Of a stretch of DNA of 64,000 nt, positions 4,724-40,855 are shown piece after piece. The translations under genes and the position numbers were made by a program. Location of the stretch: positions 2,320,001 to 2,384,000 of the forward strand of contig NC_045146.1 in assembly GCF_008831285.2 (NCBI RefSeq), given 5' to 3'. The notes beneath the pieces were generated by a model. The model made no database searches. It saw only the letters and a program-made list of their open reading frames with translations, and had not been told where the DNA came from. The first letter of the stretch is position 1; each line of letters opens with the position of its first letter. Origin of the DNA: Nymphaea colorata. Its lineage: Eukaryota > Streptophyta > Magnoliopsida > Nymphaeales > Nymphaeaceae.

Positions 4724-5360
4724 ATGGGTGAGTGGCGGCCTCTAGATCCCGTTGTTGCTGGCGTCTGTTTTTGCGTTAATGGTGCTCTGTGTTTTCAATG
4801 TGCAGGTGCTGCGGAGGAGGAGTACCGCAGCGGCAGCAGTCTGTGGCTTGCTCCGACACCGAGCAAGAGATGGGGGGAGCTGTTCTTCCTTTTCTATACT
4901 CCCTTCTGGCTCACTCTCTGCCTTGGCATCGTCGTTCCTTACAGACTCTACGAGGTGCCTCGGATCTCCCGTCCAACCGTTTTCTTTGAAGTTTGTTTTT
5001 TTAATTTGAAATTGCTGGCCGTTTTCCTTTCCTTTTTGTTGCTTCTTTTTTCGATTTTTGCGTGGTTTTGGCTTGAGAGGCTTCGTTGTCGTGGGTGTCG
5101 TGACGGATGGGTTGCTTGTTGTATGGGTGTTCTCCGGAGTGACTTGTTTGTGGTGTCGCTGTTCTTGGATGTTCTGGTGGATTTTTGGTCTTATGGTTAG
5201 TGATGGAGTAGTGTGGGATGGAACACCAACAATGCTGTTTACGGTGGTTGGCATTGTAATGCCGGATTTTTTTTTTTCAATCTTCTCTGTTTCCTGTCTG
5301 AAAGTGCGGATTAGTCGCCGCTGGAATTTGGATGCTGTACTATTAGTAAATTGAAGAAGG

Positions 5361-5391
<31 letters not shown>

Positions 5392-8300
5392 TTCTATCAT
5401 AGAGCTAAGTTGACATCGCGTAGTGGCATGCCTTTTCTGAATTGGATGTTGTGATGATGGACCTGCATATGTGGGAATCCTCCCATAAGCATCCGTGTCA
5501 AAAACTTCATGTACCAAAAAGAAAGAAAGAAAAAAAAAAACGAAATTATGTGTATTTTCAGCGTCTTTTGAAGCCCAGAAGTTAAAGTTTCTTATTTGGT
5601 CTCTTGATTTGCAGAGCTTCTCAGAACTGGAGTACCTGCTTCTGTCATTGGTTTCTGCTGTTCCTTCTTTTATGATACCGACGATTCTAGTTGGGAAGGT
5701 TCCTCTCTGATCACCTCTTCTTTATAGTTGGTATTTCTGTTTTCTGTTGGGTTTCGCACACAGGATCACGATTCATCATATTTCTTTTTTGGGGTATTAA
5801 TGGCAATAAAAGCTGCTCTCATGAGAGTGTGCAACAAAACATGAGGCTTCAATGACAACGTCATGTGGACGTGGTGAGCTCTTCAGTGTCTTTGTCACTG
5901 AATCGTTATCTGCTAGCTCAATTTAATCTAACCTTTTGTGTTCAGTAATAAGCAGTAATAAGCATTGCGATTCCATGTGCCTCAAGTAGGTCCCAAGAAT
6001 TAAATGTGTTTCCTCAGGGATTGATAACTGTAGTTGCTAATTAACAATGCAATCAAGCAGATATAGTCAAATCTAACATTTTTTCTGTTCTAAATCTTTG
6101 GTGTCTTGAAGAATATCTTAGACTCATTTGGGAAATCACCGACTTTCTTTGAAAATGTAGTATCCAGAGCAATTGAGAACATGCATATTCACCAAAAGAA
6201 GTTCTAGGTGGGTACTGACTCTTCACAAAATGAGAGGTGTGGGCCACTATTGACTACTTGATGGCTTCCTAGTGGGAACAACCAAAAGTAGTATCTACAC
6301 CTTTCAGCAAAAAATATTAGTTATTAGATTCAAGCACTTCTTGAAGTTCTGCACTTTGAGTTTGAGCTTTTAAGTAGTTATTCATGGCTCCAAAAAATTG
6401 ACTTCAGGATGCTTCTTTCAGGAAGATGGTGGCAAACATTGGAAAGACCGTTACTGGGTAAAGGTCAGTGTCTTATCCTGCTAAACTCTTAGAACCTGAT
6501 GATGTAACAATCTGTACGTAGATGATGTCTTGTAGGAATTTGAAACTATTTTTATCCTATCAATGATAGTCATTTAGTTTACGAGATTGACAGAAATTCT
6601 TGGACAAATTTACACTTCAAAAATTTAACGAGTGATGAAGATTCACTTTTTGGCAATGCCTCTATGCTTGACATAACATGAAAACACAAGAGACAATGAA
6701 GATAGCCCCAGCATGATCTGTTTTGCATATAGGATTGTCGTAGGTAATGATATTAAGAAAAGACCTTTCTCAGTTGCTCTGTCCTTTTTGTGAAGGTTCT
6801 TTTCTTGATTAAATGAATGAGACAGAAAACCTAAGGCTATTGAAACAAATTCTTCATTATTTACAATGTATGATTTGGCTTATTTCTAACATGAATACTT
6901 AGTTTCTGGAAAATATTATTGCAAAAGTTGTCCTTGTTCTGGGTGATGGATACTGACTAAATAATAACATGTGTATGTGAATGCTGCTAATCATATGTCT
7001 ATATATTTGTTCTAAGTGCAATTCAGCTATAATTAACTTTTTAAAATTGAAGGCAATATGAACTATGATGAATTCCTGATATGTCATTTAGAGTGGCCAA
7101 TCAGTTGTTCTCCTTTGTGATGCTCATTGCATGTTTGATGCTTCTTGTTCTTTTGGTAAGCAGAATGCTGCTGAAGCCAACATATTGATTTGGTCCACGA
7201 CAATTTGAGCACCCAGATTTTTGTAATTGTCACTCTGTCTTAACCACCTAATTTTTGTACTATAACTCTGTGGCAGGCCAGTTTGTGGATTTCAATATTT
7301 AGTTATGTTGGCAATTATTTCTGGACTCACTATTTCTTCACCGTTCTTGGAGCATCCTATACTTTTCCATCTTGGAAGATGAATAATGTAAGTATAAAGA
7401 ATTACTCTAAAGAGGACAAAACAGTTGCTTTTCCACTCTACTGCTTTCATTTTCTTATTGCATTTAAGGGTTTTGAAAAGAATGAGGCAATTCCATTACA
7501 CATAGGAAGGAGCTTAGCTCATTTCTTTTACATTTAGAACAAGCATTAATGTTCAATTCTGGAAAAAGAACAACTCACATAAGTAGGATTAGCAACCGTT
7601 TTGGTTGACATAACTTGAATATTGCAGTTCTTATCTGATATCTCGAAGTTCCAACTTTAAGCTCATGATTTTAGGTTCTCTTCTATTTCCTTTGGATCAT
7701 AAACCACTTATAGGTTGCACACATGATCCAAGTAGTAAATATTCTTGGTTCTGGTAGGATGTTTACAATTGAGAATTGTGACTGGTTACTGATGCTGGTC
7801 TGTTTATTGCTGTCTAGACGTGGACCTGGAACCAGTCCTGCCTAAGTCAGGTCTGATGGACCCTGGTCCTTGTACCCACTACACCTCATAGTGGTACTTG
7901 GATCTGGAGGTTTGAACAGACATGCCTTAGCAGATGAACCATGCTTGTAACCATTAGGAAAGTTGAAGATTTGAAATATGAAATATATGTCCTGAAATTT
8001 GAAATATAAAATATACGTACTCATAACAAGGTCTATCTGGTACTCTGTTGTAAAGACTGAAGCCATTTGAACTGGTGACTACATATTCACCTTGATCAGG
8101 TTATCCTTTAATCTTGAGTTGCTTCCTTTACAGCACCATAATTAACATTCTAGGATGATTTTTCTTTTTTTAACTTTCATTTGTCATTAATTGTTTTTTT
8201 TTTTTCTTTTTAACTGACATTTTAAAATTTTTACTCCATGCAGGTGCCGCACACAACATTTTTTCTTACACATGTCTGTTTCTTATTTTACCATGTCACG

Positions 8301-11300
8301 TCTAATATGACTCTAAGGCGGCTACGTCATTCTATCTCAAATTTGTCGAAGCTGAATCAGTTAATTATTCAAGCAGTGTGGATTTTACTCCTCTCCTATT
8401 TCATAGCCTTCTTAGAGACCTTGGCTATTGCCAATGTATGTTAAGAAAACTGATCCTTGACTTTGATATTCTTGTTGATATATTAGTCATGATTACATGC
8501 TCAACGACAAATTTCTCACTCATAAAGGTTGAAAATAAAACCATTTTATGCAATGAATCTGATGAAGAAAATTCTTTGATGCAGTTTTAAATAAAATTGC
8601 TTTTTCTTGGGTTTTCCTGTTTGAGAACCCTACTTTTCATAGTACTTGTGTTTACTTTGTTGAAGAGAAAAGTAGAAACTGAAAACTTGGTTGACATAAT
8701 CTTTGGAAAATTTTTCCATTATATTGATTGATTATTTTTTGAATAATAAAAAAGTACAGAAACTAATTTTCTGTTTCTAGGTAAAGCAGTGGATTAAGAG
8801 TAAACATGTGTCATCAGTAGGCCACCAGCACTGTTTGTTCGTTATATTGTTCCTTTCAGGTTTAACTGGAGATGGACATGAAGCAAGATGTGTCAAAGTG
8901 ATGGGGAAAAAGTAGCACAGGCAAGAAAAAAATAACATTAACATCTGCCACAGTTAAGTTAACGTAGGATAAGCCTGGCCATGAAAATCTCCACAAACAA
9001 AGTATGTGCTTCTGGTAACAAGGATGGCCTGTAGCAGTAGGTTGGTGCCTCCACTTATGAAGAATGTAAATGGTGGCATTTCACTGCCTGATATTGGTAA
9101 ATTTTCAACGTACACCAATCTTTTTAAGAAAAACTTTACTAAACCGTACTTATTACAGTGAGGAGGGCAGCTGGCACAGGTGACCAATGAGTCAACATTG
9201 CTCCACTTACCTCATCAAGTAGGAATTAGGTAGAAAAGTATCAAAATCTTATTCTGATCTATGTTTCAAAATTCAAAGTGACCAATGGACATTGAAGATC
9301 TCTCAAGGTTTTTTTCTTGTTTTTCTGCTGCTGCTGCTAGTGCTTTTGCAAGCATTACTATATATGACTCGTTGACTATTACTACTACTAGTACTATTTT
9401 GCCGCTGCTGCTGCTAATTTTTCAGTTTGTGACTGGTTGCTTTCTTATTGTACATCCATCTAATCAAAATTAAATGATAGCAACCCAACTCCAAGGTTAT
9501 GCTGAACACATGTTCCTATGTCATTTTTGGTTCCTTATTTGTGTCTGTTTAGCCACTAGTATAACACATGTTTTATACTTGGAAGTTCAGAAACATTTTG
9601 ATAAATCACGGGTACCCAACGTAAAAGTGGATTCTGCACTAAAATTTTTCTCTTCTGCCTGTTTTTGATCTGAAATTAGGTTGAGGCAATGAACTTGCTT
9701 ACTGTGTTTTATCCTCAATCCTTTTCCAGAGAAAGTTTTATGTGCCATTCTCACATTTATGTTGAATGATCTGCAGTTCCCGTACTATGAGTTTGTAGAT
9801 CGCTCAGCAATGTACAGAGTGGGATCATTGTTCTATGCAATTTACTTTATAGTTAGCTTCCCCATGTTCATAAGGTAAGATACTGACAGAAAAAATATTG
9901 TGAAGCTTTGAGATTCTACATCATTTATAATTTCTTTTACAAATAGAGTTTTGTTCTTTTCTTTTGCAAGACAATATATGCTTCTAAATTTCAGTTTAAA
10001 ATGCATAACTTACAAAATAGCACAGATGCAACAGATGCACACACACACACATTTATCACATCATTTGAGATTTGCTGCATCTTTAGAATGAAGAATACAT
10101 AAAAAGTATGAAAAGCTGTTTAGGAAGCAAATCCTGCTCACCATTATTTTGCAATTACCCTATCTTGGACTACTTTTTGGTCTTCAAAGTTATTTTCTTG
10201 CTCCTGAATTTGATTAAAAACATGTGAAATGTACACGAGACCAGATCAAATTTTCTGGATAAAATTCCAATAATATCAATTCTTAGAGTTGGAGTCCATA
10301 ATAAGACAGGAAAACATTTAGAAGTATATGTTTCCCACCACTCGCTCTTTATCTGTAAAGGGCCATGAATGTGGTTCAACTTTTATAAAGGAAAAAAGTG
10401 GACATACGGTGGGCAGCACTAAATTTAGACAGAGACAGAGGAACCTGTATAACCCAAACCACCTAGGTCAGAGACAAAAACAGACCACTTAAATTTATGT
10501 GACAAAATATTTCAGAAAAAGATAAGCATTTAACATGTTTATGATTACTAATTTAGTGTAAAACATGTTCTAATTCAAGTTATTTTCAAGAAAATGTTGA
10601 TTTTTCTAATACCAAAATTTTAGCCGTCTAAAAGCCACTAATCTTTCTATGATTAGAAAAGCACATCTAAAACCTAAAAATGATTGAACTAATATATGTT
10701 TATATTAAAATCACACTTAAGCATAGCAACAAATATCATTTTCAGGTTTTAAATCACTAAGTTTTTTTTGGGTATAACATGGCAGCGTTAAAAATCTCAG
10801 GAATTAATAAGAAAAGATCCTAAACATAAATGTGAAAATAACAATCTGGTAATTAAAATGTAAAAAACATGAAAAAAGTGAAAACGTGAAAAAAAACCCC
10901 AAAAAACAAAAAAATGCAAAAAAGAAGTGTTTTTTCATTTTAGCATTTTTTCAAAAAGACGCTTTTTGTACCTTTTTCAGCTGGCTTGTTTTCAATGTTT
11001 TGAACGTGTTTCGTAAAAAAAAAAAAAGTGTTTTCTGTGGTTATGCTCTTAAGATCATACCTACCAGTTACATTGCACAGAAAAAATATTGATAATTTAG
11101 TTAAGGTGATCTGGTTCTTGTCCCTGGCCTACGTGGTGTCTCACTTATGCCAACTAGAATGATATCCATTATGCCCACCACTTAGTTTCTTGAAAGGGCC
11201 ATGGTAAAATCCATCTTTTGCAAAAGAACAGTAAGTGGTGAGACGTGTGCATGTGTGTGTGTGTGTGTATACGTTGACCAAAGTGAGGTCAACTTGATAT

Positions 11301-14300
11301 TGCATGTGTGTTCATGCGTGTTATACAAGTTCATTAAAGGTAACTTTCAGCTGGTGTTATGAGGATTGGGAGAATCATTTATTCAACAAAGTTTGAAATA
11401 TTTACGATGCTGCATATGCTGCTTGCCAGCTGAAGTGCCTCACTCCACTTGTTCATTAGGCAGAGCCCCTTAATGAGGTGAACTAAGACTGTCAATTCTG
11501 GAATGCAGCCTCGGCTTATCATATCACTATACAACTCAAAATTTTCTCGACTTTAGATGCCAAACATAGGGCCTAAATTAAGGAGGAGTATGTTTTCCTA
11601 TAAAAAGATGAATGCACAGGGGAGGACTGCAGTACCTCCTTATGCAATTCAAGAGCCACCTCCAACCTACCACCTTTACAGAGGGCATCAAGAAGAACAC
11701 CATAAGCAGGTAGAATTGGTACAGAGCTGTATCTTGTAATCTCATCTAAGGGGCCAAGGGAAGCTATAAATTCTTTACTGAACCCTTGAATTACTTCACC
11801 GTACCCTATTGAATGCTCTGGCCAGTATATCTGTTCCATCTCATCTAGAAAATTACGTGCTTCATCTAAAAGTCCAGCAGCACAGCAATGGTTTATCAGT
11901 ACCTATACGTGACCAGATTTGGAGCACAAACTTTCTTGGTCATTTGTTCCAACAGATCAAGACAAACATAAATCTTACCAACCTTTCCATATCCATCTAT
12001 GATTGCAGTATAAGTCACAACATTTGGATGGCATCCCTTTTCCTTCATCATCAATAGAAGTTTATGAGCTTCATCTGTTTTTCCTATTTTGCAGAGACCA
12101 TCAATCATTTCAGTGTATGTTATGACATTAGGGGCACACCCATTCTCTAACATCTTAGATAAGACCTTTAATGCAAGATCAAGCCTTTTATCCTTGAATA
12201 ATCTGTCCATTAAGGAGCTGTATGTGAACACATTGGGACTGTACCCACGTGCAGCCATCAGTTGGAAAACCCTTTGTGCCTCATCCAACTTCCCAAGCTT
12301 GCTGAACCCATCAATGAGTGCATCGTAAACAACATGATTAGGTTCACAGCCATCTCTTGACATGGCTTCCAAGAGGTCTTTAGCCTCAACCACCTTGTGG
12401 GCTTTACACAAACCATCAATTAAAGCACCATAAGTCACTACATTTGGCTTCATATCTGTGTCAGCGGCACCTGGTTCAAAATACATTTCAATATCATGAA
12501 TGCTCCCACTTCCTCGCATCCTAGCATATATCTGGCAAGCCTTGTCAACATTCCCAGCCTTGCAATGTCCATCAATAAGATCAGTATATGTGACTATATT
12601 TGGAGTGCAACCTTCAGCCAGCATCACTTCAAAAAGTTTGTTTGCCTCAAAGACCTGTCTTGCTTTAAGATAAGCATGTATCAGTGTTATAAGTGACAAC
12701 ATTTGGATGAGAGCCGTTGCTTACCATCTCATTTCACCATTTCCTAGCCTGTTGAAGAAGTCCAACCTTGCAAAAATTGTCAATCAGGATTGTATAAGTA
12801 AAAACATTAGGAACAATGTTGTTTTTCTTCATTTCTTCAAACAGATGCAACGCTCTCTCAACCTTCTTGGACTGACAGAGCAATTCAATCACTTTGTTGT
12901 AGGTACTTGTTTCTGGCATGAACCCTCTGCACATCATTTCCCCTATGATTCTGTATGCCCTGTCAGGTTTTCCATGACCACAAAGACACCGAGCAATGTG
13001 TTCCACGTTTATCTTATTCAGTACATATCCAGCATCAAGCATTTCGGCATATATAGCTTCAGCCAATTGCATATCTTCAGCACCTGGAAGATCCTCTTTA
13101 TCACATATTCCACCGACCAAGATATTGTATGCCACATATCCAGGGTGGTGACCCGCACCAGACATTTTCTTTAGCATCTTGTATGCATATGCATACTCGC
13201 CTGATTTGCAAACTGCGTGCATAGAGCAGTTAAAAACACTAACAACCTTCAGAGATAATTTGATTAAAAATTTTCTTACATCTACCCGACTGCCTAGATT
13301 TCAAAAGCCCGATTATAATCGTCCCATAAGTAACTGAATTAGGAAAACAGGAACTTGAACGCATGAGATGCAAGAAAGCTACTGCTTCATCCATCATAGA
13401 TGCTTCACACAACCCCCGAATCATTTTCGTATACAAAACAGCATCAGGTACAATTTCTTCCTTATCAATTAATCTGAGTGTGTCCTTCCATCTACCTTTT
13501 TTGCACAATGAACGCACAAAGCAACCAAGCGTGAAACGATCCACTTCAAAAGCTGAAGCTGTCATCTCGTTATACACAGCCAAAGCTAAATCCATGCGTT
13601 CTGCCATGAGAAGGACGTGAATCAGCGCAATGTAAGTAGTCTTTGTGGCCTATAACCAAAGTCCTTAAACCTCCCAATCTCTTCTAGAGCCTGGTTCTAC
13701 ATTCCATTTCGACAACACTTCGTAATCAATATATTGAGAAGCTTACCGAGAATTTCATCATCTCCATCCCTAAATTCCAATAGGAAACACTCCAGTATCT
13801 TAGTTCTTTTAGCATTCATCGAAATATCTAAAAGCGCATTATATGCCAAACTGCTATGACGGTAGCCGATTTGCCTCCCAGCCCAAATAAAAAACTTTAC
13901 GCAAGGCTCCGGTAATGTCCAGAAAACCTTCATTTTAGTCAAATATGGCAAGAAGAAACAAAAATTTCTAGTTACTTTGGAGGCAGATATCACTACTGGC
14001 ATGAGGCATGAGATATAATGCCAACTTCTAAACCATCTAAGACTGATGTGATTTATTCTAATCTTTTCCTGATGTAATGTGATCAATTTAAGAAACACAT
14101 CTGATGAACTTAAGCATCAACTAGTCTAGCATTCTGCTGGAGTTATTGAAAATTGTTTCTTGGTTTCTGTCTTTTGCTTTTTCTTTCTTTACTTGAGAGC
14201 AGCTTAGTTTTGCATGGTTGGTGAATATACAACTCCTGGATGCTATACAGTGGCTTTATCATCTTGTATTCAAAATCATTAACTGTTGTTGTTAAGTGCT

Positions 14301-14880
14301 TAGCACCAAAAACATGACCAGCACTATACTGCTGCCTAGATGGTGCTCTACAGTTAATATATTAAAGGATGTATCGGAACAGTTTTGTCATTCCTAGTAA
14401 AACATTCTGCACCAAAAACCAGACGCACACTTCACTCAATCTGATTGGTGCTTTATATTATACTAAAATTCAGGGACTAGTTTCTTTTGCTCCAAGAACC
14501 AAAGAGGCACTGTACTGCTGTCATGGATACAGAAATTTGGGGATCCTCCTGATTTTAGCAGTAGTGGAAAAATTTTGAGAAAGAACATTCCATTAACTTA
14601 GAAAATGAGGAACTTTTTCGGAAGCCTGGTCTTTAAGCACAAGTTTTGCCGTCTTCATTACAATCAATTACTACCTGAACTTAAGACCTTTTTTTATTTT
14701 GACAGACTAGATGAGAAACCAAATGACTCCTGGAGCCTGTCTAGAGCAGCTATTGATGCATTGGCAGCAGCAATGCTTGTAACAATAATATTGGACATGT
14801 GGCGCCTCTTTCTTGGGCCTATAATTCCAGTTCAAGACAAAGATCAAGGCTTACCAAAAGGTCTTCCGTGGTTTCCATGA
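4724..14880 (+). CDS. CPI1: Cycloeucalenol cycloisomerase (cyclopropyl sterol isomerase), 8 coding exons
   Basis: Plant sterol enzyme (EC 5.5.1.9) that opens the 9beta,19-cyclopropane ring of cycloeucalenol to give obtusifoliol, an integral ER-membrane protein. Coding exons: 4724-4727, 4806-4954, 5615-5698, 6422-6463, 7277-7387, 8244-8435, 9777-9874, 14706-14880. All junctions are GT-AG and keep frame, giving 284 aa against about 280 in Arabidopsis CPI1 as I remember it. Family landmarks are SLWLAPTPSKRWGE (residues 13-26), GNYFWTHYFF (103-112), VPHTTFFLTHVCFLFYHV (131-148), TLRRLRH, FPYYEFVDRSAMYRVG (195-210) and WRLFLGPI (about 259-266). Several hydrophobic stretches look like membrane helices. 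The start is unusual: exon 1 supplies only ATGG before GTGAGT, so the second codon is split (G|GT). The last intron is 4831 bp and holds an antisense PPR pseudogene. No break is seen in the CDS, so it is probably functional. Homology is certain; the exact exon 1 is an inference. Confidence 0.93.
5365..5392. repeat. (CT)n microsatellite in CPI1 intron 2
   Basis: An uninterrupted CT dinucleotide run of about 28 bp inside the intron 4955-5614. A T-rich stretch and a purine tract near 5515-5540 follow in the same intron. Confidence 0.85.
9875..14705 (+). other. Oversized last CPI1 intron with nested antisense insert
   Basis: Donor AAG|GTAAGA at 9875 and acceptor TTTTGACAG ending at 14705 bracket 4831 bp, compared with 78-1341 bp for the other CPI1 introns. 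About 2.7 kb (11379-14098) is a PPR pseudogene on the opposite strand. 10030-10050 is a short CA run, and 10860-11040 is a very A/T-rich stretch with short self-complementary runs. The rest is intronic with no further coding signal. Confidence 0.8.
11379..14098 (-). pseudogene. P-type PPR protein pseudogene (At1g06710-like), antisense in a CPI1 intron
   Basis: Pentatricopeptide repeat proteins of this class bind organelle RNA; the remembered Arabidopsis relative At1g06710 (about 1000 aa) is predicted mitochondrial. Read on the minus strand, the pieces follow that protein in order: FIWAGRQIGY near 13890, then ITKCCRNGM, GLCEASMMDEA, GYVAYNILVGGIC, FEEMKKNNIVPNVFTYT, LIDGHCKAGN, PNVVTYGALIDGLCK, YTEMIDGLCKIGKTDEA and a C-terminal GCIPELTV...LIKGLC ending at a TAA at 11381-11379. 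The frame is broken repeatedly. TAG stands where a Trp codon is expected just after CCRNGM (about 13700), and a one-base loss follows about 50 bases later. There is a stop plus frame change near 13236, an in-frame TGA near 12734, a one-base loss near 12690, a frame change near 11897 and another near 11565. It cannot make a full protein. The 5' end is uncertain and the N-terminal leader may be missing. Confidence 0.88.
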
Positions 14881-15259
14881 AAGTTACAGGAGCTGCAGTT
14901 TTGCTGTTGAAGTTTACGGTCAACTTTGTTGGCTATTTGCATTTTCATTAGCCTGTAGGCTTCCCTTGTCTTATTTTTTTATAGAGGCAACTCAGTCTCT
15001 GTTTGTTTCTGAAATTCACCCTTAACTGTTGTAAATTAGCGGGGTACCTCTTTTAAAAGTTGGGAGGTGACAATGCGAATCAAATACTGATGAGAAAACT
15101 ATTAACTTTATTTATTCAACCTGAATTTTCATTTGTTCTCGACATCCATCTTTGTTTCACTCGAGTTTTTCAGTAGCATGTTTTTATCCTTTTTCCCATT
15201 ACTTAGAAAAGGTGAGTCACAAGTTCAGAAACAAGATACAATCATTACCGCCTGGACAC
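14881..15259 (+). other. CPI1 3' flank, including probable 3' UTR
   Basis: T-rich sequence after the CPI1 stop at 14878-14880. It probably contains the 3' UTR, but no single polyadenylation signal stands out. It ends at 15234-15259 in a 26-bp word (GATACAATCATTACCGCCTG followed by GACACT) that recurs exactly near 26580, directly next to the breakpoint of the inverted CPI1/PPR copy. Confidence 0.45.
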
Positions 15260-15600
15260 TGCCTCATGCCAGTAGTGATATCTGCCTCCAAAGTTACTAG
15301 AAATTTTTGTTTCTTCTTGCCATATTTGACTAAAATGAAGGTTTTCTGGATATTAATATGATTAAATAACATAAACTTCTACATGTTTTCCTATGGATTT
15401 CAACTCTAAGCATTGATATTATTGGAATTCCATCCAGAAAATTTGATCTGGTCTCGTGTACATTTCACATCGTGTACATTTCACATGTTTTTAATCAAAT
15501 TCAGGAGCAAGAAAATAACTTTGAAGACCAAAAAAGAGTCCAAGATAGGGTAATTGTCAAATAATGGTGAGCAGGATTTGCTTCCTAAACAGCTTTTCAT
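15260..15600 (-). repeat. Inverted copy of PPR 5' end and CPI1 last-intron sequence
   Basis: 15260-15355 is the reverse complement of about 14008-13914 (5' part of the PPR pseudogene, including the region reading MPVVISASKVTRNF). About 15372-15600 is the reverse complement of about 10329-10108 (last CPI1 intron). The two donor blocks are in the order expected for one inverted duplication from which about 3.6 kb, nearly all of the PPR body, has been lost. Differences are small indels and substitutions, including a short tandem repeat of GTGTACATTTCACAT. It lies tail-to-tail with CPI1, 380 bp after the stop codon. Confidence 0.88.
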
Positions 15601-15601
15601 T

Positions 15602-16909
15602 AGCCTTCAAAGTTTTGAAGGCTAAGGTGGAAGATTAATTTTGCTCGATTGAGAAATAAAATTTTTACAAATTGATGGAGGGGAGATGGTGCAAAGCGGC
15701 CAAATCCTTAAGAGTGAATAAAATTGATAATGGTGCTTCGTCTCCACATACAAATGACTAGAATGGAGAGACAGAAAGAAAATGCGACAAAATATTGTTG
15801 AAATGGTGTTGTGCGTACATTGCTATTTCTTGTCAATATTTACCTTCAGTTTTACCTTAACCCGAATTGGAATCACCCAAGTAAAGCAGAATATAAGCAG
15901 ATTTTCCCTTCTTTTTTCAGATTTGACAAGTAAAACAAGGTGTACCTTGTAGGCATCAGAGCCCAACTTACGCCCAAACTGAGTCCAAAATCTAGAACAT
16001 ATTTGACTAGTCCACCTAGCTCGAACCCATGAGGTTGGTCCATTTACAATGGAACTTTGTCCAAACAGGGATTAGATGTTAGTGTTAGCACTCTTAGTTC
16101 TTAACTTCAAGGCTAACTGTACAGTTTGATCTTGATTTGATTGAGTTTCTTTTCCCATGGATGTGAGATCTCCTCCTATCTTAGATTCTTGTTTCTTGTG
16201 ACCCACAGGCAATAGAAAACATGGATTTGCGTGAATAAGAGGATTAATCTCACCACCGGACCAGGAGCCGAAGCCACCTTCCCTTCCTCTTGTTCTCAAG
16301 GTCTAGAGTTGTGTTGGTACCAGAAAGTGAGATCTTCAAATGTTTCAACTTGCAAGTAAGACCCTGGAACTGGGGAGGCACTGCATAATGCATCCAGCCC
16401 ACCGTTTGTGTTGTGCTCCTCAAGGCAGATAACTTGAATTTCCCTCAAAATCCTCCGATCTGAAGTTCGATGGGCTGGGTCGGATCTCAGATCAACCTGA
16501 GATCCTCCGTTTAACAAAAGTAGCCTCACTATTTGACACCTTATTTGTGCATTGATAGTAAGTCTTTGATCTCAATCATTTGAAAATTTTAGATCGTATA
16601 GCACTACTTTGCACGTCCATTTATGAACCATTTGGGATGGCTAAACACTAAAGTTACTGCTTTTAAGTACTCATATTAGGTGCCGTTCATACTTTAAAAA
16701 CCTTTTGATGTCCTTGCAAATTAATGGGAGGTGTTTCTTACTGAAAATCAAGTAGAGCCTGGCCATTGCTTGGCAAACGGAACAGTACATAATTGTTTCA
16801 TGTTATGACCTAAATATTGGGGCAGATTCATGGAACACCTTAAAAAATGGTCTACGGAGCAGTTACAAACTGTTCCACTTGCCAAATGGGCCCAGGATCA
16901 CTCAGTCGG
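15602..16909. repeat. Left arm of a 1.3-kb inverted repeat
   Basis: Reverse complement of 27939-29246. Both arms begin at AGC(C/T)TTCAAAG on the outside and end at CACT(C/T)AGTCGG on the inside. They differ by scattered substitutions and by two large indels: about 65 bp around 16310-16370 is present only here, and about 60 bp around 28245-28305 is present only in the other arm. The arm carries a 75-codon open frame (16072-16299, minus) that is also open in the partner (28546-28773, plus) and matches no family I know. Part of the arm (near 16760-16880) belongs to a repeat family with GGCAGATTCATGGAACAC words that also occurs around 27080 and 49000-49560. Confidence 0.9.
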
Positions 16910-16911
16910 TC

Positions 16912-17171
16912 AAGGTTGAAAATAAAACCATTTTATGCAATGAATCTGATGAAGAAAATTCTTTGATGCAGTTTTAAATAAAATTGCTTTTTCTTGGGTT
17001 TTCCTGTTTGATAACCCTACTTTCATAGTACTTGTGTTTACTTTGTTGAAGAGAAAACTTGGTTCTTGGTTGACATATTCTTACTTTGGAAAATTTTCCA
17101 TTATATTGATTGATTATTTTTTGAATAATAAAAAAGTATAGAAACTAATTTTGTGTTTCTAGGTAAAGCAG
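16912..17171 (+). repeat. Direct-orientation copy of CPI1 intron 6 sequence
   Basis: Matches 8525-8789 with small deletions. It begins at AAGGTTGAAAATAAAACC and ends at GTAAAGCAG. It abuts the inner end of the 1.3-kb arm on the left and an inverted CPI1 copy on the right. It is the only CPI1-derived block here that is not inverted, which suggests a local flip. Confidence 0.88.
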
Positions 17172-17663
17172 GATCCAAGTACCACTATGAGGTGTAGTGG
17201 GTACAAGGACCAGGGTCCATCAGACCTGACTTAGGCGGGACTGGTTCCAGGTCCATGTCTAGACAGCAATAAACAGACCAGCATCAGTAACCAGTCACAA
17301 TTCTCAATTGTAAACATCCTACCAAAACCAGGAATATTTACTACTTGGATCATGTGTGCAACCTATAAGTGTTTTAAGATCCAAAGGAAAGAGAAGAGAA
17401 CCTAAAATCATGAGCTTAAAGTTGGAACTTCGAGATATCAGATAAGAATTGCAATATTCAAGTTATGTCAACCAAACGGTTGCTAATCCTACTTGTGTGA
17501 GTTGTTCTTTTACCAGAATTGAACATCAATGTTTGTTCTGAATGTAAAAGAAATGAGCTAAGCTCCTTCCTATGTGTAATGGAATTGCCTCATTCTTTTC
17601 AAAACTTCAGCAGCATTCTGCTTACCAAAAGAACAAGAAGCATCAAACTTGCAATGAGCATCA
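17172..17663 (-). repeat. Inverted copy of CPI1 introns 5 and 4, exon deleted
   Basis: 17172-17605 is the reverse complement of 7904-7470 (intron 5) and 17606-17663 that of 7175-7118 (intron 4). The 294 bp between them in the parent, including the whole coding exon 7277-7387, are missing. The duplicate therefore holds no CPI1 coding sequence. It continues at 17950 after the solo LTR. Confidence 0.9.
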
Positions 17664-17944
17664 TGTTAGAATATCACGTAATAGGGAACCGGGTCCGGAT
17701 ATGGACCCGGTACCCATGGGTGCGGGAACTGAGGATGACTCGGTGCCCTAGGCAGGTTTCCTCTCTCTCTTATTTTCTGATCAATTATTGTAATCAGTTG
17801 ATTGAGTGATAATAGACTCTCTCTTAGGGTTGCGGTTTTGCCCCTAGGTTAGAGCTTCTCCGTGGTTTTTTTTCCTCTTCTTGAGGTTTTCCACGTATAT
17901 GTTGTGTTGCTTCTTCGTTTCTTCTTCTGTTGCGTGTTTCTACA
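17664..17944. mobile_element. Solo LTR with 5-bp target duplication
   Basis: A 281-bp unit starting TGTTAGAATATCACG and ending GTTTCTACA (TG...CA termini). It interrupts the inverted CPI1 copy exactly between bases matching 7118 and 7117. The flanks carry a perfect CATCA duplication (17659-17663 and 17945-17949), and the parental CPI1 sequence has this site once. No internal retroelement sequence is present, which fits LTR-LTR recombination after insertion. It is unrelated to the LTRs of the neighbouring copia element. Confidence 0.88.
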
Positions 17945-17949
17945 CATCA

Positions 17950-18062
17950 TAAAGGAGATCAACTGATTGGCCACTCTAAATGACATATCAGGAATTCATC
18001 ATAGTTCACATTGCCTTCAATTTTAAAAAGTTAATTATAGCTGAATTGCACTTAGAACAAAT
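17950..18062 (-). repeat. Inverted copy of CPI1 intron 4, continued
   Basis: Reverse complement of 7117-7005, resuming directly after the solo LTR target duplication and ending where the copia LTR starts. The parent continues ATATAGAC at this point but the copy does not, so the copia boundary is also a rearrangement breakpoint. Confidence 0.88.
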
Positions 18063-18087
18063 TGTTGAATATTGGAGGAAGAAGGGG

Positions 18088-18125
<38 letters not shown>

Positions 18126-18275
18126 CTTTCTTGCTTATTCACGTGACCCTAATCTCATATTGAAAGAGATTAGGGCTGGCAACATAACAATTACAAAATC
18201 AGTCCACTAAATATAAGAAAATATTTTAAAGAACTACTATTCAACTTTCTAATATTGCAGAAACACTCTTTAACA
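18063..18275 (-). repeat. Copia 3' LTR
   Basis: 213 bp with TGTTGAATATTGG at one edge and CACTCTTTAACA at the other. It contains a long (GA)n run at about 18091-18120 and aligns along its length with 22530-22733. Confidence 0.92.
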
Positions 18276-18287
18276 CTCCCCCTCAAG
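18276..18287 (-). other. Copia polypurine tract
   Basis: On the minus strand this reads CTTGAGGGGGAG directly before the 3' LTR, the expected position and composition for plus-strand priming. Confidence 0.75.
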
Positions 18288-21200
18288 CTGGAGCATAGAT
18301 ATCAATCATGCTCAGCTTGTTACAACCTTTCAGGAAATCGCCTATGGGAAGAGTTTTGGTGAACATATCAGTTGCCTGATCTTCAGAGGAGACATGAATA
18401 GTGCTAATAATTCCTTCTTGAACTAAATCTCGAACATAGTAACAATCCACTTCAATATGTTTTGTCCTTTCATGAAAAACAAGATTGTTAGCAATATAGG
18501 TAGCCGCCTTGTTGTCGCAATACATCTACATTGGGAGATTCACTGAAACACTCAACTCTAAAAGTAATGATTTGACCCATAACATTTCAACCGCAGTTTG
18601 AGCCATAGCCCTATATTCCGACTGAGTACTAAATCGAGCCATCACATTTTGCTTCCTGCTCCTCCAAGAAATAAGATTACCTCCCACAAAGACACAAAAA
18701 CCTATAGTAGACTTTCTGTCATCTACAGATCCTGCATAATCAACATCACTATATGCTTCAATGTTAACACCTTCTCCCTTTTTGAACCATAACCCCTTTC
18801 CTGTGGCTGATTTCAGGTATCTGACAACCATTAGAGCAGCGTCCCAATGAACTTTCTTAGGTTTCTCCATGAATTGACTTTGTTTATTCACAGCGAAGCT
18901 AATGTTAGGGCGAGTAACAGTCAAATATAGCAGTTTTCCTATTAGAGAACTGTAAGATTTAGAGTCAAAAAGCTCTGATTCATCATCATGTATATGAATG
19001 TGAGAGTTCATGGGGAGAGTTGCAGGTTTAGCCCCCAATAAACTTGTTTCTTGCAGAAGATCCAAAGCATATTTTCTCTGAGATACCACAACTCCTTTAC
19101 TACTACGGGCCACCTCAATACCAAGAAAATAACGGAGTTGTCCAAGGTCTTTCGTGACAAAGTGTTTCTGAAGAAACTCCTTTGTCTGAGCTATCTCTTG
19201 ATCACTTTCCCTAGTGAGAACAATATCAACGTAAACAATTAATATCACTATACCATATGTACCTTACTTGATAAACAATGAGTGATCAAATTGAGACCGA
19301 CGAAAGCCATATTTAGATAAGACCTCAGATAGCTTATGAAACCATGCACGAGTACTGTTTAAGCCCATAAATAGCCTCATATAGACAATTTCAAAAAGAT
19401 CTCCATATTAAAAAGCATTTTTCACGTCCAGCTGAAATAAAGGCCATTGTCGCTGGACAACAAGAGATATAATAAGTCGAATAGAGCCCAATCGAGCCAC
19501 ATGTGAAAAGGTCTCAAAGAAGTTAACACCGTAAGTCTGTGTATATCCTTTAGTGACAAGACGTGCCTTAAACCATTCAATTGAACCATCAGAATGATAC
19601 TTGATGGTGAACACCCACTTGGAGCCAACCACATCACAGTGCCTTGGTGGATCCACCAACTCCCAAGTCTCTCGAGAGATAAGAGCATCCATTTCCTCCT
19701 GCATGGCATGCTGCCACCGTGAATCTAATAGGGCTTGATGGTGAGAAGAAGAGATCATCTGACTAGACAGAGCTCGATCAAACTGCACCAAACTTGTACT
19801 CAAATGGTTAGTAGAGACAGAATTAGAAATCGGGTGTAGTGTGCATTGTCGCTTTCTCTTACAAATAGCAATAGGGAGATCATATGCATAGTGTTCATCA
19901 TTTAAACCTGAATCAGTCTGATCAGTGGAGTTTACCTCTTGAGAAGACGCTGGTAGGCGGTTGGAAGAGGGACCAAGACGATGAGTGTAAACCAATGGAA
20001 GATCAAAGAAACGTTCATGTGACATAGGTTGAGATGGCGGTAAGGACTCAAGGGACACTGGTGGAATGGGAAGAGGAAGAAGTATAGGCATCTCAGACAG
20101 AGGAGGACTCGAAGGAGAAAAATAAAGATGAGACTCAAAAAATGTAACATCTGCACTGATAATCTCTTTCTTGGTATGGGCATCAAAGCACTTATATCCT
20201 CTTTTATTGGCAGAGTATCCAATAAATACACATTTGATGGCTTGGGCAGCAAGTTTGTTTTTGTTTGGGCCTAGGATGTATGCAAAGCAAGTGCATCCAA
20301 ATACTTTGGGAGGTATATGAAATAGTGGTCGATTTGGATATAAAAGTTGAATGGGAATACAGACTTGGATGGCTGACGAGGGTAATCTGTTCATGAGGTA
20401 ACATGCAGCAAGAATAGCATCCCCCCAAAAGTAGGCAGGCATGTGAGAATGCAGCGTGAGGGTACGGGCCACATTTAGGAGTTGTCGATGTTTGCGTTCG
20501 GCAACACCATTTTGTTGGGATGTGTGTGGACAAGTATATTAAGGCCGAGTTCCATGATTGACATAAAACTGAAGTAGAACAGAAGATTTGAATTCAAGAG
20601 CATTATCAGTGCGAATATTTTTGACAATAAAACCAAACTGAGTTTTTATTTCCTTGACAAATTTAGGAAGAATACATATAACTTCGGATCTTTTCCGTAA
20701 CAAGAATACCCAACTAACTCGAGTAAAATCATCAACCAAAACAAGATAATACCGAAAACGCGAGTGAAAAGGAACCCGACTAGGACCCCACACATCCACA
20801 TGAAGGAAATCAAATGGACTTTGACTAGATGGTTCTTGACTCGAAGGAAAGCTACTCCGTGTATGTTTGCCTAATTGGCAAGCATCACATAAGAAGGACT
20901 CTGATATAGTAATACTTGGAAGCATGCGATGAAGTTTTGACACTGAAGGATGACCCAATCTGAGATGCCACTGAAAAGGAGAAGACTTTGAGGAGAATGA
21001 AGATACAACAACATTTACTGGGACAGACAATAAATAGAGACCCTCACGTTCATGGCCGTCACCAATCACCTTCCCAGTTAGTAAGTCCTGAAAAGAACAT
21101 GTACCAGGGTCAAAAATGACTCTACACTTTAAATCAATAGCCAGCTGCTTAACAGATAACAAATTAACGGGAAACTGTGGAGCATAGAGCACGTGGGTAA

Positions 21201-21492
21201 TAGTCCCTAAATGTGGGAGATAAATATCACTGCTGCCCAATATAGGAGATAGTTGGCCATCAGTCAGTCTGACATGTTGTGGTGTAGAGAACCTGACTAA
21301 TGATGAAAAAATATGTGGTTGATTACAACAGTGCCTGGAGGCGCCAGAATCTATCATCCACATCATATCTGGGTCATCGGTCAGAGCACCAATAGAGAAG
21401 GAAGAGTCTATCACAGTCGTGCTGGCATATGAGAAGGAATTTTCAGCCATCTTGTAGTCATTGGAACCCTCGGACACATTACCATCAGCCAT
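18283..21492 (-). pseudogene. Copia pol polyprotein remnant (PR-IN-RT-RH)
   Basis: Four open pieces in different frames. 21492-20539 holds the protease motif DSGAS, the GAG-pre-integrase WHLRLGHPS with CDACQLGK, and the start of the integrase core (DVWGPS, DDFTR). 20472-19408 holds the integrase tail (HMPAYFWGDAI) and the reverse transcriptase N-terminus (WELVDPP, SKWVFTIKY, LDVKNAF). 19248-18526 holds the reverse transcriptase C-terminus and the start of RNase H. 18525-18283 reads [12 protein letters not shown] to MFTKTLP. Stops or frame changes lie near 20539, 19408-19250 and 18526. The catalytic YVDD box reads YVDI at 19233-19222, lacking one Asp codon. The pieces cannot make an active polyprotein. 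Confidence 0.93.
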
Positions 21493-22517
21493 AGTAAAAG
21501 TCCAACCAGAATTGTACTCACAATATGTATGTATAAGGTGCAGTAGTTAACTTCAACCAAGGCACGACAACATAGAAGAATCTGGAACACACTTATGGCT
21601 CCAATCATCAACTCAGAACTTTACTAAAACAGGCAGCAACATAGGCACAAACTCATACAGCAACTCAACAAAATAATTTCAGCTGATGGCTGCAACACAA
21701 GTAGGAACTTTACGATTAGCAGCAGTCCACAACTAATGAGACCTCAACTTATAGATTTCATATCCACGATCTGTAGATCATTCTGCTCCTTACGTCAAAT
21801 TATATCCACAAGCAATAGATTGACTCTGCCCCACACGGTCAACATAAAAATCTGATTACAACAACAATAACCTCTACGAGATCCACTTAAGGATCAGGTT
21901 GAACACAACCACAAAACAAATTGGCGGACTGTTTTCAGACGTGGATAGCAGGCAACACTTTCAGATGTCGATAATAGGTAGCAAACAAGCACAAGTTTGA
22001 CAATAGAGAAAACCTGTCTCACTTCAACGATGCAGAGAGAAAGCAGAATTCTGCCTACTCCATACAATTTCAAACTTGTCTCACTTCAATGATACAGGAA
22101 AAAGACTGAATCTACCCACACGACATACCTTTGCCTGTGAGAATCTACCAGGCACCACACGGCTAAACAAATCAGACTGCCCTAGCAGATCCGACATTCT
22201 TTGGCCTAAACATCTTCCACGGCAGCACTTGAGTTAGATTTGATTTTGTAGCAAGGTCTGATCTGATTCACCATTTCAGCGACATGATAAGCTTCAACGG
22301 CAGCAGCTTTCAGCAACTTCACGACAGCAGCAGCAACACAAGGGTGCTAATCACGTTTTCACATGTTAAAAACGTGATTAGCCCCTATCCAACCAACCAA
22401 TCAACTTGCTTGTTTTGTAAACAACAACAACCCTAGGTGTGAAACCCTAGTTTGGCGGAAGAGAGGAGAAGGGAACCCTCGGCGTGAAACCCTAGATCAC
22501 ACAGCCCTAGGACTATT

Positions 22518-22529
22518 GCTCTGATACGA
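22518..22529 (-). other. Copia primer binding site
   Basis: Directly inside the 5' LTR the minus strand reads TCGTATCAGAGC. This is the usual TGGTATCAGAGC, complementary to the 3' end of initiator tRNA-Met, with one mismatch. Confidence 0.8.
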
Positions 22530-22733
22530 TGTTGAATATTGGAGGAAAAAGGGGACGAGAGAGAGAGAGAGAGATAGAAAAACACTTTCTTGCTTATTCA
22601 CGTGACCCTAATCTCATATTAAAAGAGATTAGGGTTGGCAACATAACAATTACAAAATCAGTCCACTAAATATAATAAAATATTTAAAGAACTACTATTC
22701 AACTTTCTAATATTGCAGAAACACTCTTTAACA
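22530..22733 (-). repeat. Copia 5' LTR
   Basis: 204 bp with the same termini as the left LTR and a shorter GA run. It is followed 13 bp later on the plus strand by an exon of an unrelated gene (22746). Confidence 0.92.
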
Positions 22734-22745
22734 CTTTCTTTCCAG

Positions 22746-25700
22746 CTGGGAAGACCTCTTGAGGAGGACTTAGCAAGCTGGGGGCATCATTCCTCTTCAA
22801 CTACTGTTCTTCAACCTTCAGCTGGTGAAGAGGTACCTTTTGGGTTTCATTCTTTTTCTAGTTTTGCCTTTTTTTCTTTTTTTCCTTGCTTTGCTTGCTA
22901 GCTTTTATAGGAATCATTCTTATCTAAATTAAAGACATTCAATTCTTGTCAACCTAATGCTGCAGGTAGTGTTTTATTTAATGCAGACAAAAAGTGGACT
23001 CCATAAGCTATTCTTTATCTCACCGTCCACTTGTTGCATTCTTTCTGACATTCTACATAGTTGTACTTGTCATTATTGACAATTTCCTGAAAAACTTGAC
23101 TATCTTAACATTCTTGTTTGATTTAAATCAATTCTTGCTGCCATGCATACTTCAATTGAAGAACAAGATCAGTTGTTTCATGCTGACATTAAATTAAGAA
23201 CTTCTATGCAGTGAACACAGGATTGTTGTTGTCTAAGGGCAAAATTAGTTCACATGGTTGTTGGAAAGAATCTGAAGATGCTTTTGGTAGATGGTCAAGC
23301 CCGTTATGTTATTTGATGCTTTCTACATTACTTCAACCACTCGATACCTAAGGGCAAACACTTGCTGTTATCTATTTGTCTTTTGAACTGTGAACTGAGC
23401 TGCTAAAACAGGGACCAAGGGAAAGACAACATACGTTCTTTCTTTTCATTGGACTGGATATCTATTTTTTTTCAAATGCCTACACAATTTAGGTATGGGA
23501 AAAAGTTGAAGGAGTTGAAGAAGCAAGAGAAGTTGAAGAGGGAGAGGTGCATAAAATTTTCAATTTTCTCTCTCTCTCTCTCTCTCTCATTCTCTGGAAT
23601 GGGATTCTAAATGGAGCTCGCTGCTCCTCCTTGTCCCTTTTTAAAGGTGGGACGAATGTCCCACCTTCTTTCCCATTTTTCCTTGCAACCTAATTTCTTG
23701 ACTGTTTTGGAAATCTAGATTCTTAGTTTGTTTAGGAAACTTAGTTCCCTAATTGTTTTTAGGAACATACATTCCTAATTTCAATTGTGGCACCTCCTCT
23801 TTCCTTTTTTTTGTAGTAAGTCCTTTTTGGCAAAACACTTTACTAGAACTTGTTTTCATCAAATAAACTATTCTTCAAGTCTTATTATCTGACCAATTTC
23901 AATTTAGATCAACTAGCATGGATGAATTCGTAAACTGCTATAGAGAATTACGGGAGGTTTAACACATGCCAAGGAGGACAACATTGTGTAGATAATCCTT
24001 CTAATACTAGTGGTGCAAGATGGTGTACCTTGCCATTGATGCAACCAAAAGGAAGGAAATTCATGTGAAGTTGATGTATCTTGTATTTTCCAGTCATAAG
24101 TCTTAATGTTTTCTGCAATACTGATTTGTGAACTATTTGGAAAATGAAACATGAAGCACTATTCTTCTACTCTTGGTAACTCCTAATTTCGTGAAAAATA
24201 TGGTTGGTACTATCTAGTTCAGTGGCATGTTTAGGTTTCAGCTGTGGTTTCTCTGCCTTGTCGGCTACCAGGAAGTCACATGCTGCTGTTCTGGCAGCTT
24301 CCATTTCTCACTGTTGAGAGCTTATTGCCATTGTGCTTCATCTAGTAGTTCATCGACCAAGAACTAAAATGTGAAACCCATTGCAAGTCACTCAGTCTCA
24401 TTGTGATGGGACAATGATGCATTCCAGGTTCACTTATGGTATATCACAATATGGCACCATAACTTGCTCAAGTTCATTGTCTATGTTATGCCATTACATG
24501 ATGGCTCCTATTCTGTCAATCGTGCAACTCAACATTCATGTATTGAGTCACTATAATTTTGTCTATTGCATTGCAGGATTGTGTAATGTTTTGGAAAAAA
24601 GTTTGTTTGCTTGTGAGGGGTTTTTCATGAAAAACATATTTATTTAAGGACCCTGTTAATGATATCACCATATTCCAGGTGATGCTCCCTGCAACTTCTG
24701 ATATATCCGGGGTCCTCATTTAGGGAGACAATGCTGATAATTAAGTTGCTTTCTGACATTGCCATCATTATTATTGTTATTCAGCATTGATATTTTGTGA
24801 GGGAATTCTAGCAATCTCTCCATCCTTTACCATGGAATCTATTAAATGAAGAACAACGAACCCTCTTTTCCATCAAGTAGTGTAATAATTGAGCTGCTTT
24901 TATTTAGTCTGATGTGCTATGGCATGCTGCCGCTAGTTAATTTTTGTTGTTCTTTCTAACTAGTTGTATTTGCTAGCAAATCACCATTTTTTTACCTATC
25001 TCCATGGGCATAAGTTTGTCGTGTTGGTTTCTGTATATGAATTATTCTTAGCCAGATTCTCTATTATCTCACTAAGACAGCTGATTTTATGCCATTCACC
25101 CTTAAACTTGCTTCTAGGTATTCTTTTGATAATCCAGTTTCAGCTACTACCTGTATCTGCCGTTCCTTTTGCTTGGTCTCATGTTCAATTATTTTTCTGA
25201 TTCAATAGTCAATGTCAAGGCACTAGCTGTACAAGGAAATCTTTCGGCAGATATTGCTATAAGTAATTTATGTTGACAATGTTTAATATCTGTTCTCCCC
25301 TAACAATAGCGTCCCTTTCCTGAGATATTTAACGTGTAAAGGCTATATTCATGCATCTTTTCTAGTTATTCACATGATTACTTGTTTTATTACGCTCTCT
25401 TTTCACCACATTATACAAACTGGTCAACCACCAGCATGTTGCATCACGTTTGCAATCATTTGTCCTGTACCTACAGGTCACATTTGTCTTTGCCAATCAA
25501 GTCGGTGGAAAGCTGGTTCCAGTTGAGCCAATGGAAAGAAAGTCGCCCGTTCCATACACCATCCTGATGACACCCCCTAATCCTAGTTCTGCACTTTCAT
25601 CACATAAAGTTAGTGCCTTGTCCCATTTGGTTGAAGACTCGAGCATCTGTAGAACAAGCGGTGCCTTTCCTCCTTTGCAGAAGCTGCCAAAATTTCCTAC

Positions 25701-25821
25701 AACAGCAAAGCACGCTAATACTAGTGCAAATTCAGTAAGCAAAGAAAGTATTTCGCATAAAATCCAGCTACCTGTCAAAAGGATGTCTACTGAAATTGAT
25801 GACGATGATGATTTTGTTTAG
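22746..25821 (+). CDS. Three terminal exons of an unidentified gene, 5' part missing
   Basis: Exons 22746-22832 (29 codons), 23493-23546 (18 codons) and 25477-25821 (114 aa plus TAG) are all flanked by GT-AG and all in phase 0, giving a 161-aa C-terminal fragment. It starts LGRPLEEDLASWG, has a highly acidic middle exon (VEGVEEAREVEEGE), then a Ser/Pro-rich tail with PVPYTILMTPPNPSS, and ends in an acidic EIDDDDDFV. I do not recognise the family. The first acceptor (TTTCTTTCCAG) lies only 2 bp from the copia LTR, so the LTR cut the gene inside the preceding intron and no upstream exons are found to the left. Three consecutive same-phase exons argue for a real gene end rather than chance. With no 5' end here it is probably a transposed or truncated fragment. 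Confidence 0.6.
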
Positions 25822-29246: not shown

Positions 29247-29387
29247 TGAGCTACATCGAACTTTTGAGCAACTATATAAATCTACGTATATTAGGGAAAA
29301 CCATATGTGAAGTGCACATAATATCAACATTTTTGTCAGTACAACCAGGAGAGCAGGATACCCCTTTTGGTTTATGAAAATACTGAC

Positions 29388-29428
<41 letters not shown>

Positions 29429-40816: not shown

Positions 40817-40855
<39 letters not shown>

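Follow-up and report, generated by a model that had tools for sequence, protein, structure and literature searches.

Several described systems resemble the structure reported here. In human, the excerpted text of PMC2671141 presents repair-mediated duplication, in which proximal DNA is captured at breaks, and accounts for it with an SDSA model; microhomology of 2-9 nt is common in that set, pieces reach 619 bp and distances rarely exceed 5 kb. As far as the available parts of the plant reports go, filler insertions at double-strand breaks are known from tobacco, Arabidopsis and barley (PMC3289645, PMC3706897), chromosomes are shattered in Arabidopsis haploid induction (PMC4461816), and inverted duplication is the basis of a model of plant miRNA origin (PMC3237417).

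The window, that is the whole stretch of 64,000 nucleotides of Nymphaea colorata DNA analysed here, holds an intact gene whose features are collected in Table 1. We take this gene to be CPI1. All its introns fit a GT-AG model of 8 exons, encoding 284 residues with no internal stop, and a Pfam search of the product returned no family. On its 3' side copied scraps form a patchwork, derived for the most part from CPI1 introns 4-7 and mostly inverted.

Table 1. Features of the CPI1 locus, the mosaic array and its surroundings (positions in the window).
Feature	Position	Strand	Remarks
CPI1	4724..14880	+	intact, 8 exons; plant sterol gene
CPI1 exons 1-4	4724-4727, 4806-4954, 5615-5698, 6422-6463	+	
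CPI1 exons 5-8	7277-7387, 8244-8435, 9777-9874, 14706-14880	+	
Parent piece, CPI1 intron 4	7005..7176	+	
Parent piece, CPI1 intron 5	7470..7904	+	
Parent piece, CPI1 intron 6	8525..8789	+	
Parent piece, CPI1 intron 7	10108..10332	+	
Parent piece, CPI1 intron 7	13913..14008	+	inside nested PPR copy
Parent piece from 28 kb	27939..29246	+	lacks 57 bp present in both mosaics (window and sister)
Dispersed-repeat piece in CPI1 3' flank	15135..15260	+	broken at 15260, where the mosaic starts
Mosaic piece 1	15260..15355	-	from 13913-14008; 2 substitutions in 96; junction common to sister
Mosaic piece 2	15368..15600	-	from 10108-10332; 11 substitutions in 215 (15368-15598); junctions common to sister; preceded by 12 nt of filler; private 16-bp repeat
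Mosaic piece 3	15602..16909	-	from 27939-29246; 51 substitutions in 1252; 56 bp of parent and sister absent
Mosaic piece 4	16912..17171	+	from 8525-8789, direct; 9 substitutions in 256; junctions common to sister
Mosaic piece 5a	17172..17605	-	from 7470-7904; 13 substitutions in 434
Mosaic piece 5b	17605..18062	-	from 7005-7176; 4 substitutions in 177; split by solo LTR
Solo LTR in piece 5b	17664..17944	.	281 bp, TG...CA, CATCA on either side
Copia element bounding array	18063..22733	-	LTRs of 213 and 204 bp; RVT_2, GAG-pre-integrase, others
3' part of another gene	22734..25822	+	exon-like pieces only; 5' side missing here

In a self-comparison of the window every block named by the first-pass annotation was recovered to within a few bases, with E-values from 2e-22 to 0, while the array compared with the reversed window, as a control, gave no match at E <= 1e-3. 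The annotation was right that CPI1 introns had been copied, mostly inverted and collinear, to the gene's own 3' side: the five CPI1 pieces stand in the exact reverse of the parent order, and only 8525-8789 is direct. Some of its details had to be revised. The five blocks it listed are present, but two of them (7005-7117 and 7118-7175) make up a single block, 7005-7176, interrupted by the solo LTR; it overlooked the 28-kb piece as part of the mosaic; and it placed the end correctly at 18062 without seeing the Copia element, whose LTR starts there and is the reason why the array stops.

Counted by substitutions, the pieces are 95-98% alike to their parents. Divergence is uniform across nine aligned pieces (chi-square p = 0.81), and the CPI1-derived sequence (39/1178) does not differ detectably from that derived from 28 kb (51/1252; Fisher p = 0.34). 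This uniformity gives no date for the deletions. Neighbouring pieces overlap by 0-1 nt or are separated by 0-12 nt of filler. The donors lie 1.3-14 kb from 15260, so that donor and acceptor are closely linked, over a range wider than in the human set.

A search of the same genome revealed a sister mosaic (C9:7616008-7620186) with five junctions in common with that of the window; the CPI1 exon 8 flank adjoins it there as well, and exon 5 is retained. Within 15235-18062 no CPI1 exon was found, the best exon match being 12 bp and 24.3 bits (mean 22.8 and maximum 28.2 bits in 30 shuffles). The first-pass annotation was therefore correct about the exon-free array, but since the sister keeps exon 5 this state is not original, and exon sequence in a copy, which the annotation had named as evidence against its reading, does occur in the sister. 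The sister is unbroken over 6940-7904, which indicates that pieces 5a and 5b were once continuous through exon 5. In the window the interval between them (7177-7469, 293 bp) was deleted later; exon 5 went with it, as annotated, but so did 100 bp on the intron 4 side and 82 bp on the intron 5 side, and the deletion is not exact to the exon. That the array lacks exons seems to be the accidental result of a later deletion, not a gene-silencing device. The number of known mosaics, two, is drawn from 7470-7904, which has 3 places in the genome (3/3 candidates scored), and from a search with the exon 8 flank, which is present in the window, in the sister, in an older paralog at 77% and in two dispersed-repeat matches. 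The search dominated by the solo LTR, in which 40 of 1287 candidates were scored, may miss further mosaic copies.

CPI1 exons have 26 matches elsewhere in the genome, 25 of them recent. In the stretches read, these matches lie inside chimeric duplications built from window 6-40 kb; composites at different loci have joints in common, and those holding CPI1 fragments are on C3, C9, C12 and C14, while C2 and C8 have matches at the protein level. The places are C3:29.06-29.10, C9:7.56-7.64, C9:9.17-9.20, C12:13.85, 14.25, 14.35 and 14.50, C14:9.62-9.64, C2:4.57 and C8:2.41 Mb. The composite structure was read in six stretches and one single locus. A composite runs through window 22.7-33.6 kb, inverted CPI1 6000-7358, 34.3-40.0 kb and CPI1 8701-10376, and then through a 1.1-kb filler, 37.6-40.0 kb and 8701-10225 again, and a 4-kb repeat X. 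A tree built from 11 copies of the window segment 8955-10225 has one well-supported inner branch out of eight; it is nearly star-like and leaves the burst unrooted. Among open frames of repeat X, of the 28-kb source and of the 3' part of the other gene, Pfam found nothing but Copia parts above the cut-off. The annotation had also named independent, widely dispersed repeats as evidence against its reading of the blocks. This is true of the solo LTR, which has at least 33 other genome matches (8 pairs 4-10 kb apart among them), and, through the composites, of 10108-10329, with 20 genome matches including parent, window copy and sister; it was rejected for the blocks as a whole by the 3 places of 7470-7904.

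Taken together, these data favour the reading, to which we give a probability of about 0.62, that the array is a repair patchwork made next to CPI1 by template switching at a break, as part of a burst of chimeric segmental duplication. Extension would have begun at a DNA end lying about 380 bp beyond the CPI1 stop codon (15260) and copied five stretches from templates close by: two from CPI1 intron 7 reversed, 14008 to 13913 and then 10332 to 10108; one from the 28-kb region reversed, 29246 to 27939; one from intron 6 in forward orientation, 8525-8789; and one from introns 5 and 4 reversed, running through exon 5 from 7904 down to 6940 or further. Afterwards, and in the window copy alone, the 293-bp deletion would have taken the exon 5 part, an LTR element would have inserted and left the solo LTR, and a Copia-associated loss would have truncated the array at 7005. 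In the wider burst the 6-40 kb neighbourhood would have been copied piecemeal into chimeric composites at several chromosomal places. In favour of repair, the pieces come from two neighbourhoods and in both orientations, their divergence is uniform, a sister has five of the junctions and CPI1 composites occur elsewhere. We infer that the array arose in a single event, and by template switching (SDSA or MMBIR-like) rather than by ligation of broken fragments. However, microhomology of 0-1 nt is below the 2-9 nt of the captures excerpted from PMC2671141 and fits ligation equally, and pieces of 1.3 and ~1.0 kb, like donor distances of up to 14 kb, lie beyond the range of that human set. Most likely the patchwork has no function of its own.

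The perfect reverse order, which would be expected in only 1 of 60 cases if order were random, also speaks against repair, as it is the prediction of a single inverted (foldback) duplication of ~7-8 kb at the CPI1 3' end that deletions, a small inversion affecting the intron 6 piece and a 1.3-kb insertion from 28 kb subsequently eroded. The sister shows that one deletion at least, 7177-7469, was indeed a later event. The single inverted duplication proposed by the first-pass annotation does not suffice by itself, because the array is not one contiguous inverted copy: the 28-kb piece lies inside, one piece is direct and there are gaps between pieces. The eroded form calls for separate deletions plus an inversion and an insertion, all of which must predate the sister, since five junctions are common to both, and the inserted piece is equal in divergence to the rest. 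The order keeps this explanation alive as a rival, although we consider it unlikely.

It is more doubtful still that the composite itself is a mobile or self-amplifying unit lacking known transposon ends, for example a reintegrating circle assembled from shattered DNA, with the CPI1 patchwork as a by-product at the donor locus.

Capture and transport of the fragments by a transposon (Helitron, MULE or similar) would agree with composites having common joints at several loci and with the ~22-bp palindrome in which piece 3 terminates. Nevertheless, the printed edges, inspected for piece 3 and the array, show no inverted terminal repeats on the piece, no Helitron-like end after the palindrome and no target duplication round the array (the outer ends of the composites were read in part); moreover, both known mosaics bear CPI1's own exon 8 flank, which means that the mosaic did not arrive as one inserted unit. 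We judge this origin very improbable.

Least credible of all is a functional source of double-stranded RNA regulating CPI1, with exons lost by selection, which the first-pass annotation had allowed beside chance: the arms would pair strongly, with computed duplex energies of -165, -325 and -785 kcal/mol for three arm pairs and loops of 1251, 5035 and 9267 nt, the first two arms start 380-490 bp beyond the stop codon, where read-through may reach them, and pairing within nascent read-through RNA may occur, but exon 5 is retained in the sister and its loss postdates that copy, exons match elsewhere, randomly placed pieces miss every exon in 38-54% of trials, an exon-free copy should be unable to target spliced CPI1 mRNA, and Rfam gave no small RNA at gathering score in 14900-29400. 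Relaxed Rfam matches there numbered 6, none near gathering score, and the whole window has one tRNA, at 58 kb.

The surroundings of the array were also characterized. The repeat piece preceding it is 84% alike to C4:266327-266451, and a different portion of this repeat is found at window 26580-26660. A 26-bp match between 15235-15260 and 26580-26605 was tried as a further templated patch and rejected: C4:266151-266551 spans both places, so that they belong to a single dispersed repeat and the start of the mosaic is at 15260. The 26-mer found no match in viral contigs. Near 26580-26605 there is what we take for a tRNA-like A box (26652-26668); ARAGORN found no tRNA in 14800-30000. The integrase core of the Copia element scores 30.0 bits (cut-off 32.6), and its flanks, CAAAT and CTTTC, do not match each other. 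On C3 and at C9:7.626 Mb the gene beyond it runs on leftward of the Copia site; comparison of its 3' part with solved structures yielded one match only (E = 0.076).

The sister copy, found in the same genome, illustrates how seeming exon avoidance in an inverted duplicate can be accidental, and removes a tempting natural-RNAi story. What it revealed is a burst that cut up the neighbourhood of one gene, rejoined the parts and spread them, with joints in common, to several places on the chromosomes; should the unit that spreads be defined, this would bear on the dispersal of plant gene fragments without a recognisable transposon.

Compared with the excerpted model of PMC3237417, the locus has an inverted copy adjoining its source gene; however, that model requires foldback sequence matching the target transcript, whereas here nothing but intron sequence is left, and 1.25-9.3 kb separate the arms examined. 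As in the available parts of PMC4461816, pieces are rearranged in both orientations with joints that are blunt or show microhomology or insertion, and template switching was proposed there for part of the rearranged pieces, but that event was chromosome-scale and occurred in a cross, while ours involves one 34-kb neighbourhood. PMC3289645 and PMC3706897 likewise have plant breaks mended with nuclear or flanking sequence and short filler at the joints; in their excerpts the breaks were induced, with insertions of 80-677 bp, or filler was inferred at small indels, and a multi-kilobase mosaic such as ours is not among the cases described. With PMC2671141 the likeness is in nearby DNA copied into a break and in filler or microhomology at the joints. 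The excerpted human set includes some acceptors that are two-donor chimeras and one inverted exon copy; here two neighbourhoods contributed five stretches, with pieces as long as 1.3 kb and donors as far as ~14 kb away. Joints with filler or microhomology, no poly(A) and, on inspection, no target duplication agree with those of SDSA-type events, with weaker microhomology than in PMC2671141. The kind of structure is already known, and the CPI1 patchwork is a further example of it.

All the intron-derived blocks that the first-pass annotation had named downstream of CPI1 were recovered in a self-comparison of the window, but its two separate intron 4 blocks, although both present, are a single block interrupted by a solo LTR of 281 bp (17664-17944) with CATCA on both sides. 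Among the best 40 of 1287 candidates, at least 33 other genome matches to this LTR were found, with at least 8 pairs spaced 4-10 kb; its retrotransposon family has many genome copies. The same annotation had proposed a single inverted copy of CPI1. The five CPI1 pieces do lie in perfect reverse order (probability 1/60 under random order), and this makes an eroded foldback duplication of the gene a serious rival, if an unlikely one, whereas window 15602-16909 is, by BLAST, an inverted copy of 27939-29246 (the 28-kb piece) at 95-96%, so that the array is, as read from its sequence, a mosaic drawn from two neighbourhoods. Divergence is uniform across nine aligned pieces of this mosaic (chi-square p = 0.81), with substitutions at 39 of 1178 sites in the CPI1-derived pieces versus 51 of 1252 in the 28-kb pieces (Fisher p = 0.34), and its joints show an overlap of 0-1 nt or a filler of 0-12 nt. 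A 26-bp match at 15235-15260, considered as a further patch, was rejected as a common part of a dispersed repeat; therefore the mosaic begins at 15260.

Decisive evidence on the mosaic's history is provided by the sister, a second copy at C9:7616008-7620186, where CPI1 13990-15260 (the end of intron 7, exon 8 and 3' flank) is followed by the same mosaic. Five junctions are common to window and sister (15260/14008, 13913/10332, 10108/29246, 27939/8525 and 8789/7904), while the window's intron 5/intron 4 joint and its Copia joint are absent from the sister. There 6940-7904 runs uninterrupted and exon 5 is kept with its splice sites, apart from one 3-bp deletion and two substitutions, which indicates that the window mosaic lost this exon later, through a 293-bp deletion. 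When six pieces were compared three ways, mosaic and sister agreed against the parent at 60 sites; the window copy alone differed at 35 and the sister alone at 40, all three disagreed at 2, and 2284 sites showed no difference. Within the 28-kb piece, the sister has both 57 bp missing from the parent and 56 bp missing from the window mosaic.

Selection against exons had been suggested, beside chance, for their absence from the array. The exon-free state needs no selection, because random placement of the five blocks in 7005-14008, of which exons occupy 401 of 7004 bases, missed every exon in 38% of trials (54% with the end blocks fixed). Of the idea that the array is a source of double-stranded RNA, what is left is that intron arms may pair in nascent read-through transcripts, a pairing predicted to be energetically easy; an exon-free array should be unable to pair with spliced CPI1 mRNA.

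The eight-exon gene itself, which we take to be CPI1, is intact, with GT-AG introns, 284 residues and no internal stops, and its product matched no Pfam family. An older paralog, matching exon 8 at C9:21069692-21069909 (77% in DNA, 56% in protein), has two internal stops. Nested within intron 7 (11600-13900), on the minus strand, is a copy of a PPR gene in several open frames. Its sole other genome match (C9:2232725-2235040, minus strand) is 96% alike and lies ~97 kb upstream, so the nested copy looks like a recent duplicate placed into the intron.

The window corresponds to C9:2320001-2384000 of the genome searched, which comprises 407.8 Mb in 783 contigs and, judging by its genes, is that of a plant; match counts are lower bounds. 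Block 10108-10329 has 20 matches on C9, C12, C14, C3 and C2, including parent, window copy and sister, because CPI1 pieces are held by composites, chimeric duplications assembled elsewhere from pieces of window 6-40 kb; 7470-7904 has 3 matches, and 24000-25000 has 10 including itself. The parts of the composite are, in order, window 22.7-33.6 kb, inverted CPI1 6000-7358, 34.3-40.0 kb, CPI1 8701-10376, a 1.1-kb filler, 37.6-40.0 kb again, 8701-10225 again and a 4-kb repeat, X. Of the loci fetched, none has all of these parts in full, and several have just a subset. The joint 10225/X is identical at the seven places compared, save one base at one place, and 33636/7358 at the three compared. Repeat X (for example C12:13861296-13865298) is fragmented in the stretches read and has no match within the window; no Pfam family scored above cut-off for open frames in X or in the sequence around it. 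The fetched stretches contain CPI1 exons 4, 5 and 7, with exon 8 in the sister only; exon 5 is whole in the sister and elsewhere cut, to at most 82 bp. A search with the CPI1 protein (42 of 42 candidates scored) gave 32 matches. Six fall within the window; the other 26 comprise 14 of exon 7, 10 of exon 5, one of exon 8 and the older paralog. Matches to exons 2, 3 and 6 were confined to the window; exons 1 and 4 fall below the length that such a search can match. Since the window is the sole holder of an intact CPI1 and the composites use its pieces shuffled, we infer that it was their donor.

The Copia element bounding the array has non-matching flanks (CAAAT versus CTTTC), and its LTR pair shows 9 differences in 210 positions, a few bases past the LTR included. 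Copies of the Copia-site stretch on C3 and at C9:7.626 Mb are without Copia, with the sequence GTAATCCTTTCTTTCCAG, and preserve a state older than the window's. These copies and the unequal flanks suggest that Copia inserted at CTTTC, in a similar stretch, and that the mosaic end afterwards took the place of its left side, with loss of the intervening DNA, possibly through recombination between two Copia copies.

Copia element and other repeats and open frames in the window
Feature	Position	Strand	Observations
Copia element bounding the array	18063-22733		RVT_2 and GAG-pre-integrase matches; integrase-core match just below cut-off
Dispersed-repeat part, possibly a SINE	26580-26668		tRNA-like A box on minus strand
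MITE-like, hairpin-forming stretch	27957-28085		Within 28-kb source; weakly resembles Rfam family MIR4371 (28.2 bits vs gathering score 110)
Large open frames	36849-41684	minus	One with NT-C2 domain match; fragments recur in composites
Tandem direct repeat	40323-40805		Period 159 bp, >99% alike
Tandem direct repeat	54100-54661		Period ~140 bp, >99% alike

The literature searched, mostly without subscription journals, gave no recognised account of this CPI1 mosaic. That breaks can capture nearby sequence is already known. In human, the accessible part of PMC2671141 describes 824 proximal captures, with pieces of up to 619 bp and a mean distance of 1.2 kb; 20 of the acceptors are two-donor chimeras. 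As far as the available portions of the plant studies go, induced breaks in tobacco and Arabidopsis gain nuclear and flanking sequence with filler of 1-36 bp (PMC3289645), barley deletions with filler are ascribed to SDSA (PMC3706897), and joints in shattered Arabidopsis chromosomes are blunt or show microhomology or insertion (PMC4461816). The small microhomology of the mosaic fits ligation as well. Set against what these portions describe, the mosaic fits the same kind, with pieces that are more numerous and longer.
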